DNA from: Chthoniobacter flavus
Lineage (GTDB): Bacteria > Verrucomicrobiota > Verrucomicrobiia > Chthoniobacterales > Chthoniobacteraceae
DNA length: 40,255 nucleotides
Assembly (NCBI GenBank): GCA_945861435.1
Contig: CAMAUX010000052.1
Location: forward strand, 1 to 40,255
Direction of reading: 5' to 3'
Positions 4,276 to 11,937 of this stretch are shown here, piece by piece. Every line of letters begins with the position of its first letter. Position 1 is the stretch's first letter. The notes below the pieces were generated by a model that saw only the letters and a program-made list of their open reading frames with translations, had not been told where the DNA came from and ran no database searches. The position numbers were made by a program, and so were the translations under genes.

Positions 4276-4346
4276 GCGACTGAAAAGGCGACTGAAGAAG
4301 CGACTGAAGAAGCGACTGAAGAAGCGACTGAAGAAGCGACTGAAAA
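4276..4346 (+). repeat. 12-bp tandem array, about six units
   Basis: The unit gcgactgaagaa is repeated head to tail: a variant first copy (4276-4287, ending aaaag), four perfect copies (4288-4335) and a truncated last copy (4336-4346). The near-identity of adjacent units points to recent slippage expansion. Read as protein in one frame it would give KKRL repeats, but no gene context supports translation. Confidence 0.9.
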
Positions 4347-4400: not shown

Positions 4401-4473
4401 CAGCTGCAACAGCTGCAACAGCGGCAGTAGAGGCAGTAGAGGCAGTAGAGGCAGTAGAGGCAGTAGAGGCAGG
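4401..4473 (+). repeat. 9-bp tandem array upstream of the sigma factor gene
   Basis: Five perfect copies of ggcagtaga lie at 4423-4467, followed by a partial copy, and are preceded by a cagctgcaa doublet at 4401-4418. The array is about 75 bases upstream of the sigma factor start, so length changes could alter spacing of upstream regulatory elements. That effect is only a possibility. Confidence 0.9.
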
Positions 4474-5867: not shown

Positions 5868-5882
5868 CGGTCGCGTTGTGCT

Positions 5883-5964
5883 CGGTATGCGGATCGGCAT
5901 GCGGATCGGTATGCGGATCGGTATGCGGATCGGTATGCGGATCGGTATGCGGCTCGGTATTCGG
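5883..5964 (+). repeat. 12-bp tandem array, six units plus a partial
   Basis: The unit cggtatgcggat is repeated at 5883-5954 (copy 2 has c for t, copy 6 ends ggct), followed by the partial copy cggtattcgg. It begins 16 bases after the stop of the small exported protein. Its sequence is unrelated to the arrays near 4276 and 9306, although the unit length is the same. Confidence 0.9.
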
Positions 5965-8193: not shown

Positions 8194-9135
8194 ATGCCGA
8201 TCACCATCCAACCGTACCGCAACGCATCCGAAACTGTGCTCGACCAAAGTCGCCGGGATTTCCTTCGAAAGATGTTTGTTGCCGGGATGGGCGCGTTCTG
8301 TGCCCCCCGGGCTTTCGCTGGAATCAACGCGGAAGAGGTGGTGGTGGATCCGCATTCGTGGGCGCTGTTTGCTGACACGCACGTTGCGGAGGATTTGTCG
8401 CTGCGGGCCCTCGGGGTCAACATGGCCGAGACCTTTCAGCAGGCGGTGGGCGAGGTGGTCGGGATGGCGACCCGTCCCGGCGGCGTGCTCATTAACGGAG
8501 ACTGCGCGTTCCGCACGGGGCGCCCTGGCGATTATGTGGCGCTCACTCGTTTGCTGGAGCCGCTGCGCAATCATGGGGTGCCGGTGCACCTGACCCTTGG
8601 TAATCACGATGACCGTTCGCATTTCCGTGCGGCGCTGCCTTCCGGGGAATGCAGCAGTGCGCTGGGAGACAGGCACGCAAGGGTCATCGAGACCGAGCGC
8701 GCCAACTGGATTCTTGCCGATTCCTCCACGACACCGATTGGCGAGGGGCGCCTCGGGCCGGAGCAGCTTGCATGGATGCAGGAGGTGTTGGATGCGGCGC
8801 CCGACAAGCCCGCAATCATCTACGCGCATCACAATCCGCAGGATGGCTACACGGAGTGGTCGTTGGAGGACACAGAGGATTTCTTTGCGATGGTCGCACC
8901 GCGGCCGCAGGTGAAGGCGTATGTCTTCGGTCACAGTCATCGCTGGAGCATCGATCAGCATGAGTCCGGTATGTACCTCATCAATCTGCCGTCGACCGCC
9001 TATGTGTTTGAGCAGGAGGAGCCGAGCGGTTGGGTGAATGCAACGCTGCTGGAAAATGGCATTCATCTGGAACTGCGCTGCACGGACAGGACGCATCCCA
9101 AGCACGGGGAGCGGATCGAGTTGCAGTGGCGTTGA
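8194..9135 (+). CDS. Tat-exported calcineurin-like metallophosphoesterase
   Basis: The product of 313 residues carries a twin-arginine signal (SRRDFLRKMFVAGMGAF near residue 20). It then has the five metal-binding blocks of calcineurin-like phosphoesterases in order: ALFADTHVAED, GVLINGDCAFR, LGNHDDRSHF, IYAHHNP and VFGHSHRW. These would bind a two-metal centre and hydrolyse a phosphomono- or phosphodiester in the periplasm. Tat export suggests that metals are loaded before secretion. The ATG at 8194 is chosen over the GTG at 8185; neither has a strong Shine-Dalgarno sequence. The gene is monocistronic, followed by about 2 kb of repeat-rich DNA. Substrate unknown. Confidence 0.88.
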   Translation: MPITIQPYRNASETVLDQSRRDFLRKMFVAGMGAFCAPRAFAGINAEEVVVDPHSWALFADTHVAEDLSLRALGVNMAETFQQAVGEVVGMATRPGGVLINGDCAFRTGRPGDYVALTRLLEPLRNHGVPVHLTLGNHDDRSHFRAALPSGECSSALGDRHARVIETERANWILADSSTTPIGEGRLGPEQLAWMQEVLDAAPDKPAIIYAHHNPQDGYTEWSLEDTEDFFAMVAPRPQVKAYVFGHSHRWSIDQHESGMYLINLPSTAYVFEQEEPSGWVNATLLENGIHLELRCTDRTHPKHGERIELQWR

Positions 9136-9269
9136 GGCGGGCGCAGCCCTGCCGGCATGCTGGCACGCGCGCCTAGGTTGGGGATTGAGTTGCAGGGGCC
9201 CGAGAAAACGTGACGCCTTGCGAAGGTGATGCCTGTCCCTTGTGGACGTCTCTGTCCCTTGCGGACGTC

Positions 9270-9817
9270 TCGCCCAACGGACTCTGGTTGTTCGCCTTCG
9301 CCCTCCTACTCTTACTTCCACTCTTACTTCTACTCGTACTTCTACTCGTACTTCTACTCGTACTTCTACTCGTACTCCCTACTCCTTCGCCGCCGTTGCC
9401 CGGTGCGATTGGATAGAAGCCAGAGTACGAGCAGTCGTCGAAGCGCGAGCGGCGCCCGAAGTACGAGTAAGAGTAAAACTAAGGGTAAGGAGCGAAGTTG
9501 GAGCCGGGGGGATGATGCCTGTTCCGAATTGCACTTAGATGCGAGGCCCGTTCGGGGTTTTGAGAGACGATAGAGGCAGAGGCTCCTCTCATCATCATCC
9601 CTCTCGCGCCCCATGCCGGGGCGCATCGCGTGAGGACACGTGATCCGGTGGTTCCCTTCATCCGCTTTGCGGATTGCGTTCACCGACCGGCTTGTCGCTT
9701 TCATGCCTCCGGCATGCTGATGGTGCGATCGACTGTTTCGTGGCTGAGCTACCCCATCGAGGCATGGCCGATGCCTTTCACTCAGTGAGCCATTCATGGC
9801 TGTTCCTCGCGGGCGTC
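9270..9817 (+). repeat. Long repeat unit, copy A (548 bp)
   Basis: The unit starts at tcgcccaac and contains, in order: a pyrimidine-rich array of cttac/ctcgtac (9306-9380), a spacer with gcgattggatagaag, a purine-rich array that is its inverse (gtacgagtaagag, from 9460), and a block with the hairpins ccccatgccgggg, atccgctttgcggat (9660-9674) and catgcctccggcatg (9702-9716). It ends ccattcatggctgttcctcgcgggcgtc. It is about 45 bases longer than copy B because its left array is expanded by 12-bp tacttctactcg units. Confidence 0.9.
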
Positions 9818-10320
9818 TCGCCCAACAAACGGACTCTGGTTGCTCGCCTTCGCCGTCCTACTCTTACTTCCACACGTACTCCCTACTCCTTCGCCGCCGT
9901 TGCCCGGTGCGATTGGATAGAAGCGAGAGTACGAGCAGTCGTCGAAACGCGAGCGGCGCCCGGAGTACGAGTAAGAGTAAAACTAAGGGTAAGGAGCGAA
10001 GTTGAAGCCGGGGGATGATGCCTGTTCCGAATTGCACTTAGATGCGAGGCCCGTTCGGGGTTTTGAGAGACGATAGAGGCAGAGGCTCCTCTCATCATCA
10101 TCCTTCTCGCGCCCCATGCCGGGGCGCATCGCGTGAGGACACGTGATCCGGTGGTTCCCTTCATCCGCTTTGCGGATTGCGTTCACCGACCGGCTTGTCG
10201 CTTTCATGCCTCCGGCATGCTGATGGTGCGATCGACTGTTTCGTGGCTGAGATACCCCATCGGGGCATGGCCGATGCCCTTCACTCAGTGAGCCATTCAT
10301 GGCTGTTCCTCGCGGGCGTC
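9818..10320 (+). repeat. Long repeat unit, copy B (503 bp)
   Basis: This copy is almost identical to copy A outside the arrays, with only scattered substitutions (for example aaac inserted after tcgccc and cagag to cgaga near the spacer). Its left array is contracted to about 30 bases (9858-9887). The tight similarity of A and B over some 340 bases of right-hand block implies a recent duplication or ongoing homogenisation. Confidence 0.9.
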
Positions 10321-10660
10321 TCGCCCAACAAACGGACTCTGCGTGTTCGCCTTCGCCCTCCTACTCTTACTTCCACTCGTACTCCCTACTCCTTCGCCGC
10401 CGTTGCCCGGTGCGATTGGATAGAAGCGAGAGTATGAGCAGTCGTCGAAACGCGAGCGGCGCCCGGAGTACGAGTAAGGGTAAGTAAGAGTACGAGTACG
10501 AGTAAAAGTAAGAGTAAGGAACGAAGCTGGAACAGGGGAGATGATGCCTGTTTTGAATGGCACTCAGATGGGACGCTCGTTCGTGGTTTTGAGAGCCGAT
10601 AGAGGCGGGTAGAATCTCCTCTCGTCATCATCCTTCTCACGCCCCTGACCGGGGCGCTTC
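10321..10660 (+). repeat. Long repeat unit, copy C (partial, diverged)
   Basis: This copy starts 503 bases after copy B. It keeps the left array (10361-10392), the spacer and the right array, but its right array is expanded (10468-10519, several gtacgagtaag-type units). It breaks off after the ccccctgaccggggcg hairpin region near 10660. The lower identity at its right end suggests that it is the oldest copy. Confidence 0.85.
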
Positions 10661-11193
10661 GTGTGCTGGTATCGCCCCAATTATTATTGAGAATCGCGAA
10701 ATAGGGTCACCGCGCAGCGTCCAGAGTATGGGCATTCCGAGTGTCACCGTAATGTACGACGCCCAATAATCCGGCCATTGAATACCCGCGGTAATGATGC
10801 GCCGCACGCAGTGTCTCGATGCCCGGCGAGCGAGGGATGAGGCTCATGTGCACTGCCAAAGCGCAACCAAATCGACCCGCGCGATCGCTGGTGTTTGGTG
10901 GCCGGATTAATAACGACACGAACGGGGCTCTGATCTCACAGCCATCCGGGGCGTGCATTTTTCCGTACAGACCGCTCTGTCCGCGGTGCGCCATTCCTGT
11001 GCATCGCAGATGCGGCGGTGTGCCGAGGTTGGTGACAGGGCGCGATCTCACGGAGAGCGGCGCGGTGAGCCTGTGGGAGATTTGCTTCGCCACGAATTCG
11101 TCGCCGTTTAGGCGCGGAATCGATGCGGTTTTTTTCCCGTAAAGCCACGGCTTCGTCGCTGGGAATCCACATGCGTGGTGCAGGTTCTTAAGA

Positions 11194-11937
11194 GTGACAC
11201 GAGTCCTTCTCACCATCGCAATCGCCGGAAACCTAGTATTCATGCCCATTCCCGAGGTGTCTGCAGGCGACACCCAGGCGCTCCGGCGGCCTCCCGGCAG
11301 CGGGAACCGACCGATGGTCTCATCGATCCAGCGCCCGCCGGTTTCGATGTTGGGTGAGGCTCCCGTCCAATTGCCGCCGCTCCCAGAGGGAGTGGAGGAG
11401 TTGAAGTTCGCAGACTTCTACAAGATGCCGGTGGGACCCCGTGGTTTGGAGATGACGGAGCGCCTCAAGCAGCTCGAAGGAGCGAAAGTGCGGCTCTCTG
11501 GTTATTTTGTCTTTGAGGATTGGAGCTCCTGCTCTTGCCCGCCGACATCCGCCGATGCAGCGGCGAACCGCCGTCCGGCGATGCCCGCGTGGATGAAGCA
11601 CGTCGTTCCGGGGCGCGCGATTTTTTGTCCGCTCCCGACGTCGGTGAACCTTGACCACTACGGCCTCGGCGATGAGCTGCCCTCGCAGATGGCCTTCCTG
11701 ACGATCGCGCCGCGCTTCGGGCAGCCCGTTTTTTTTCGCCCCGGCTTTTTCACCGCCATCGGCGTGCTTGAGCTCGGTAACAAAGCCGAGCCCGACGGTC
11801 GCGTTTCGCATGTGCGGCTGAAGGTCGAAAACGAAGCCGACATCGCCCCCGTTGGGCGTGCGACCCCCTCTTCCCCCAGTACTGAAGCGGCCGCAGGACC
11901 TGCCGCTGCCGTGATCACTCCGTCAGCCAATCCGTAA
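11194..11937 (+). CDS. Exported DUF3299-like protein of unknown function
   Basis: The 247-residue product starts with GTG and has a short signal peptide (MTRVLLTIAIAGNLVFMPIPEVSA). The core (about 65-215) contains LKFADFYKMPVGPRGLEMTERLKQLEGAKVRLSGYFV, a central CSCPP/HVVPGRAIFCPLP segment, and a terminal GVLELGNK strand. The overall plan, in which a gene product describes what it replaces ('LxGxxVRxxGY' then a cysteine/proline block then a final strand), resembles DUF3299-type periplasmic proteins, but the match is weak. The tail is Ala/Pro/Ser-rich and probably disordered. It lies 29 bases upstream of the alkaline phosphatase gene, so the two are likely one transcript. Confidence 0.65.
   Translation: MTRVLLTIAIAGNLVFMPIPEVSAGDTQALRRPPGSGNRPMVSSIQRPPVSMLGEAPVQLPPLPEGVEELKFADFYKMPVGPRGLEMTERLKQLEGAKVRLSGYFVFEDWSSCSCPPTSADAAANRRPAMPAWMKHVVPGRAIFCPLPTSVNLDHYGLGDELPSQMAFLTIAPRFGQPVFFRPGFFTAIGVLELGNKAEPDGRVSHVRLKVENEADIAPVGRATPSSPSTEAAAGPAAAVITPSANP

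Follow-up and report, generated by a model that had tools for sequence, protein, structure and literature searches.

The right half of the repeat unit that makes up the array at 9276-10675 is probably a solo, non-autonomous REP-like element of single-stranded DNA, duplicated in tandem at this locus, with a short transposase (TnpA) of subclass 1.2 as its partner. This reading draws on the dispersed copies of the element, its hairpins and their covariation, its position and orientation at tnpA genes, the foot found in its relatives, and the HUH, tyrosine and glutamine residues of the transposase. Positions refer to the window, the whole stretch of 40,255 nucleotides that was analysed, and the genome that contains it is called the own genome (Table 1).

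Table 1 Features of the array and of its right flank, in window positions
Feature	Position	Strand	Description
Unit A	9276-9827	+	552 bp; hexamer palindrome and hairpin element; direct repeat families D1, D2, D6
Hexamer palindrome of A	9303-9491	.	Arms about 9303-9386 and 9460-9491; tandem and inverted repeats
REP-like hairpin element, copy A	9584-9806	+	R1 match, 141.2 bits; alignment A1; core 9600-9716 (117 nt), H1 9606-9624, H2 9645-9690, H3 9702-9716
Unit B	9828-10330	+	503 bp; direct repeats, alignment to A
Hexamer palindrome of B	9858-9994	.	Arms about 9858-9889 and 9963-9994
REP-like hairpin element, copy B	10087-10310	+	Extent from dispersed copies; R1 match, 142.7 bits; core 10103-10219 (117 nt), H1 10109-10127, H2 10148-10193, H3 10205-10219
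Unit C, truncated	10331-10675	+	Hexamer palindrome and start of hairpin element (H1 only)
Hexamer palindrome of C	10361-10518	.	Arms about 10361-10390 and 10466-10518
REP-like hairpin element, remnant in C	10614-10665	+	H1 about 10640-10656
Another dispersed repeat	10676-10800	+	Starts at the end of unit C; 42 own-genome matches including the one in the window

The hairpin element in its own genome

The original prediction had described a conserved chain of hairpins in each unit, and the 117-nt core of copy B indeed folds as single-stranded DNA into these hairpins, with a z-score of -4.9 and none of 200 shuffles as good. The fold consists of H1, H2 and H3 plus one extra hairpin between H1 and H2. 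Taken singly, H2 is exceptional (z -2.8), and H1 and H3 are unexceptional (z about -1 each). We aligned 66 cores of about 117 nt each from the own genome (alignment A1), leaving out of the input the hits with fewer than 90 query bases, duplicates sharing the inner 60 bases and a single copy whose core has 51 nt. All 66 copies have H1, H2 with its outer and inner stem, and H3. Over the 27 pairs, 94.7% of the cells are paired (91.8-96.0% in the individual helices), and slid versions of the structure pair in 34-42% of cells. Two-sided changes occur in 8 pairs as against 2.8 in shuffles, and the covariation score is 0.083, as against 0.055 for shuffled alignments.

A covariance model, R1, was built from A1 and hence from own-genome copies only. 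It has at least 111 matches on 47 contigs of the own genome, and the true copy number is higher, since the copies flanking tnpA at locus L064, which R1 also found, lie outside the matches listed. Grouped with gaps of up to 500 bp, the matches listed make 82 clusters, of which 63 are single, and 25 of the 29 adjacent pairs among them share the same orientation. In three genomes of the same genus, R1 has 2, 16 and 22 matches. In the own genome the core of the element is flanked on both sides by conserved stretches, none of which was seen in the copies next to tnpA.

The foot, defined as the four bases 5' of H2 read on the minus strand of the element, is ATAG in 26, TTAG in 13 and GTAG in none of the 66 own-genome copies; the rest are degenerate, so that NTAG accounts for 39 of 66. 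Copies A and B in the window have the foot CAAG.

A short IS200-type transposase and the elements beside it

Six Y1_Tnp matches are present in the own genome, one in a short frame and five in longer ones. The short tnpA (G000:C37:13525-13968, 148 aa; locus L064) has three tandem copies of the element upstream and one inverted copy downstream. Its product scores 61.1 against the IS200 model (cut-off 55) and 20.6 against RAYT (cut-off 80), and it aligns with IS608 TnpA (2a6m, E 1.6e-4) across the HUH and YxxxQ motifs. H54, H56, Y113 and Q117 are invariant in the aligned homologues, and the own frame is intact. The motif Y---Q--HH is likewise invariant in all 25 homologues of an aligned set that we chose, and a conserved F..E tail is seen in the alignment, a candidate for the specific conserved C-terminal domain of subclass 1.2. 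Y---Q--HH is given as the signature of TnpA subclass 1.2 in the excerpts of PMC6006769, and by this motif of its sequence the own transposase is assigned to that subclass. According to the same excerpts, subclass 1.2 generally lacks the typical terminal structures of IS200 and occurs mostly in Cyanobacteria and Bacteroidetes (PMC6006769).

The tnpA gene is present once in the own genome and in one or two copies per genome in the genus, and homologues occur in all four genomes of the genus that were analysed. Across a phylum sample, 48 of 194 genomes have tnpA homologues, about a quarter of the 48 by weak matches only, and most of the carriers have 1-6 copies. The 12 weak TnpA matches of one genome, G045 (E about 1e-5), probably represent another subclass. 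A scan of named genomes yielded 60 tnpA loci, mostly titled Verrucomicrobiota, the other titles including deltaproteobacteria, Planctomycetota, Lentisphaerae, Acidobacteria, Bacteroidetes and others. Judging from these titles, the window, too, would belong to Verrucomicrobiota.

The degenerate feet in the own genome, and the many solo copies set against a single tnpA, would be expected if the elements were decayed remnants without a live partner and the array only a local duplication. We consider this unlikely, as the own tnpA frame retains its HUH, tyrosine and glutamine residues and the helices have remained paired over the 66 copies to the extent given above.

The element recurs beside tnpA in other genomes. 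R1 was run over 88 tnpA loci outside the own genome, including all 60 named loci and dropping L079, which has masked bases; with a threshold of E<=0.01 there were 103 matches, and 42 of the 88 loci hold one or more of them. The named loci account for 85 of these matches, in 34 loci, and 84 of the 85 lie within 700 bp of tnpA, a zone that holds 26% of the flank bases. A match within 120 bp of tnpA is present at 32 of the 60 named loci, on both sides at 19, and absent from the other 28. Upstream of tnpA the matches are mostly on the minus strand (24 minus, 6 plus) and downstream mostly on the plus strand (17 plus, 4 minus), and 12 upstream elements end 5-10 positions before the matched tnpA start. 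The titles of the matched loci include Geobacteraceae, another deltaproteobacterium, Hydrogenedentota, Rhodopirellula, Victivallales and Lentisphaerae. In the control, 30 S23 loci (the best-scoring of the phylum sample, at least 29 of them from other genomes), R1 had a single match with E 0.07. At the level of whole genomes, R1 matches occur in 7 of 20 genomes with tnpA and 1 of 13 without it (p 0.11), a weak association because R1 detects only close versions of the sequence.

These 103 relatives also covary. In their alignment, which was fitted to R1 and leans towards the structure, 95.9% of cells are paired (30-48% in slid versions), 21 of the 27 pairs show a two-sided change in at least one sequence, two-sided changes amount to 405 cells as against 112 in shuffles, and the covariation score is 0.385 as against 0.110 when shuffled and at most 0.043 for slid structures. 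One pair of H3 is C-G in 58 and G-C in 45 of the 103 sequences, a swap that is not produced by model fitting. Such two-sided covariation is also expected of RNA, and the element might act mainly as a structured transcript, a 3' stabiliser or a terminator, its hairpins being kept by selection on RNA. However, no Rfam family was matched, both strands of the core fold well (z -4.9 and -3.5), and the matches cluster at one transposase gene, inverted on its two sides, which a role as RNA does not predict; we therefore judge this explanation quite improbable. The structured RNA proposed among other options in the original prediction finds no footing in Rfam, and the covariation is explained equally well by hairpins of single-stranded DNA beside a single-strand transposase.

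The five longer Y1_Tnp frames of the own genome (L055-L059, 391-481 aa) have partial similarity to RAYT. Any one of these proteins, which are nearer to RAYT, could in principle be the partner and the copies at the short tnpA incidental, inasmuch as five such genes exist and, for the protein that was scored, the RAYT model NF047646 came out best, at 61.3 bits and thus short of the cut-off of 80. Nevertheless, blastn with the element found no copy of the core at these loci and, outside the core, no more than a 39-bp match at L057, and in many genera the element accompanies short tnpA homologues, which makes a longer partner very improbable.

Among the 103 relatives the foot is TTAG in 66, GTAG in 29 and ATAG in 3, as against a CTA start in 2.5% of shuffled linkers; the count is helped by R1, whose own consensus has a preference for CTA following H2. 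According to excerpts of PMC3733652 and PMC8266576, a GTAG ahead of the stem is the hallmark of REPs; TnpAREP contacts this tetranucleotide, which is thought to guide cleavage. We also scanned for hairpins without R1 (perfect stems of at least 7, loops of 3-9) at 83 tnpA loci and 30 S23 genes, omitting L079 (masked bases) and L145, L146, L148, L152 and L153 (partial gene matches). Up to 300 bp from tnpA there are 4.69 hairpins in each kb, compared with 0.72 at a distance of 900-1500 bp and 1.11 in the neighbourhood of S23 genes. An NTAG foot precedes 53 of 446 hairpins near tnpA, 2 of 121 further out and 0 of 40 near S23, and hairpins with such feet lie near 31 of the 83 tnpA genes, on both sides of 13. 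At five loci titled Bacteroidetes, Bacteroidales or Dyadobacter, NTAG hairpins are present on both sides (L151), on one side (L144) or on neither (L131, L147 and L149).

A tagged-hairpin pattern, TAGCCNNGGGCNNNGCCCNNGG, has 86 matches in 13 of 40 tnpA-positive genomes and none in 40 tnpA-negative genomes (Fisher p 8e-5), with the provisos that the pattern was devised after hairpins had been viewed in some of the same tnpA-positive genomes and that several matches are the copies beside tnpA itself. The tnpA-negative set consists of phylum-sample genomes without a TnpA match, 20 of the 40 being named and the others taken from their absence from the match list. A backward control of TAGCCNNGGGCNNNGCCCNNGG has one match. 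The pattern has no match in the own genome, where H2 is different. The tagged hairpins form at least 13 inverted pairs about 120-140 bp apart, like REP doublets. One stretch of another genome (G086:C1:193808-196996) contains four inverted pairs of tagged hairpins, with 138 bp within a pair and 0.85-1.2 kb from pair to pair, possibly a larger array of doublets.

Hexamer palindromes and the make-up of the array

The array lies between a phosphoesterase gene (Pfam Metallophos) that ends at 9135 and a frame that begins at 11194. It comprises three head-to-tail copies, as originally described, the third of them truncated. The length of 503-548 bp then ascribed to all three is true of two only (552 bp for A and 503 bp for B), as unit C is cut off where another dispersed repeat begins (10676). 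Units A and B, said to be nearly identical outside their variable arrays, align over 503 bases, with 49 gap columns, at an identity of 97.8%, and of 99% in one 300-bp stretch; the difference in length fits the longer 12-bp array of A, which has about 5.9 copies. Unit C is 88.6% identical to B across 317 aligned bases; it retains H1 and lacks H2 and H3, and its only R1 match is at 10633-10694 (E 0.022). The absence of a conserved protein frame holds as well: the four frames that span the array matched no Pfam family, and a protein-coding explanation was dropped. A known structured RNA family was likewise dropped, there being no Rfam match at the gathering threshold in the window or at E<=1 in 9136-11193.

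Two dispersed repeats that are unrelated to each other make up the unit: a palindrome of GAGTAN hexamers on the left and the hairpin element of about 220 bp on the right. With unit B as the query of a DNA search, 71 matches were obtained in the own genome, and just four of them, all inside the window, reach query positions before 215. The palindrome has arms of the form (TACTCN)n and (NGAGTA)n; the corresponding pattern GAGTANRAGTANRAGTA has 141 matches in the own genome and its reverse one. These matches are spread over many contigs, often as tandem units and frequently with opposed arms. Hexamer palindromes look intergenic in the own genome (for example at L184-L199). At one locus (L052 1381-2780, G000:C6), about seven of them stand in tandem directly upstream of an S23/IVP four-helix-bundle gene. 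Because one of the three own-genome PF05635 genes has such palindromes upstream, we checked S23 loci for arrays; none of the 30 fetched loci has one, and a general link was dropped.

Hexamer arrays and hairpin element also alternate in tandem at a second locus, L041 (G000:C8:10716-11749), as would be expected if the whole composite were one functional unit rather than a chance meeting, but this is highly improbable given that the element is absent from all 16 other fetched hexamer-array stretches (L041 and the window left out), that short matches to the unit's left half in the fetched element loci are confined to L041, and that the array is missing from three other genomes of the genus, bar one 55-bp hexamer match in one of them.

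In most longer copies of the repeat at 10676-10800 the homologous part is about 10684-10769. This repeat has ATTATTG/CAATAAT ends and is often close to copies of the hairpin element in the own genome. To its right, an inverted repeat, TAATCCGGCCA/TGGCCGGATTA, occupies 10767-10790 and 10886-10909, with 95 bp between the arms; its left part is also found alone elsewhere. Short tandem repeats with 9- and 12-bp units occur at 4276-4344, 4423-4472 and 5882-5964 of the window, between or within frames.

Taken as a whole, the original prediction is partly supported. Its REP-derived composite points the right way, insofar as the portion with the hairpins is REP-like, dispersed and tied to an HUH transposase, and forms a composite with the hexamer palindrome. 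For its third option, a chromosome-organisation site, nothing came up in analyses that were aimed at the other questions. It had asked for a count of genomic copies, a covariation test, a look for transcription and a search of other genomes, naming a lack of other copies, of covariation and of transcription as grounds for a mere local duplication; on two of these counts, the copies in the own genome and the clear covariation in both alignments, the outcome points the other way.

Relation to known systems and a proposed mechanism

The system resembles REPtrons, the pairing of REP/BIME sequences with TnpAREP (RAYT), in several respects that the excerpts of PMC3733652 and PMC8266576 describe: many solo palindromes per enzyme gene, an enzyme gene bracketed by copies, inverted doublets (here in other genomes) and a GTAG-type foot 5' of the hairpin (here TTAG or GTAG in 95 of 103 relatives). 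The high, dispersed copy number is also REP-like. Unlike the REPs of those excerpts, with palindromes of 20-40 bp, the element has a 117-nt core of three hairpins; TTAG is commoner than GTAG, and the partner scores as an IS200 TnpA, far below the RAYT cut-off. With IS608, of the IS200/IS605 family, it shares the HUH and YxxxQ residues and hairpins at the gene ends, whereas here solo hairpin elements far outnumber tnpA, three hairpins lie on each side, and the HH after Y---Q is absent from IS608.

Within the TnpAY1 classes, as far as the excerpts of PMC6006769 describe them, the transposase agrees with subclass 1.2 in its invariant Y---Q--HH and low copy number, and differs in having hairpin elements and occurring mostly in Verrucomicrobiota. 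Class 3 is similar in being REPtron-like, with several atypical hairpins flanking the gene and high copy numbers in some genomes, but has Y----Q and a CnGA foot in place of Y---Q--HH and KTAG; it has already been proposed as an intermediate between classes 1 and 2, that is, between IS and REPtron (PMC6006769, same excerpts). The TIRtrons (TIRYT/TIR) outlined in the excerpts of PMC3733652 likewise combine a tyrosine transposase flanked by inverted repeats with a dispersed family; the REP-type foot and fixed order of three hairpins set the present element apart, a distinction drawn on these features. The same excerpts report GTAG repeats in Opitutus terrae and name Rhodopirellula baltica, so that REPs in this superphylum are already known (PMC3733652). 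Among the titles and abstract openings listed in library searches on REP/RAYT, REPtrons, subclass 1.2 and repeats of Verrucomicrobia, none describes a link between the TnpA and the element. What appears to be new is the tie to subclass 1.2 together with a three-hairpin element bearing a TTAG/GTAG foot.

By analogy with TnpAREP and IS608, we propose that TnpA would recognise and bind hairpins in a displaced single strand, that its tyrosine would nick near the foot, and that the enzyme would then move or copy the element, so that a single enzyme gene would come to have many solo copies. The same mode of action is assumed for REPtrons and IS608. At the present locus, a solo copy may have become the neighbour of a palindrome of GAGTAN hexamers, after which both would have been duplicated together in tandem, with L041 as a second case.

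An origin from IS200-type insertion sequences is assumed for REP repeats and for their transposases. More broadly, we lean towards the view that subclass 1.2 TnpAs form an unrecognised group of REPtrons across several phyla, each with its own three-hairpin elements with TTAG/GTAG feet, and that they may be living intermediates that connect insertion sequences with domesticated REP transposases, the array in the window being one product. If this is true, the transition from IS200 to REP could be tested directly, using a single small protein together with short oligonucleotides; a likely substrate would be assigned to a transposase subclass that has been described without one, and there would be an explanation for a class of repeats between the genes of Verrucomicrobiota and some other phyla.
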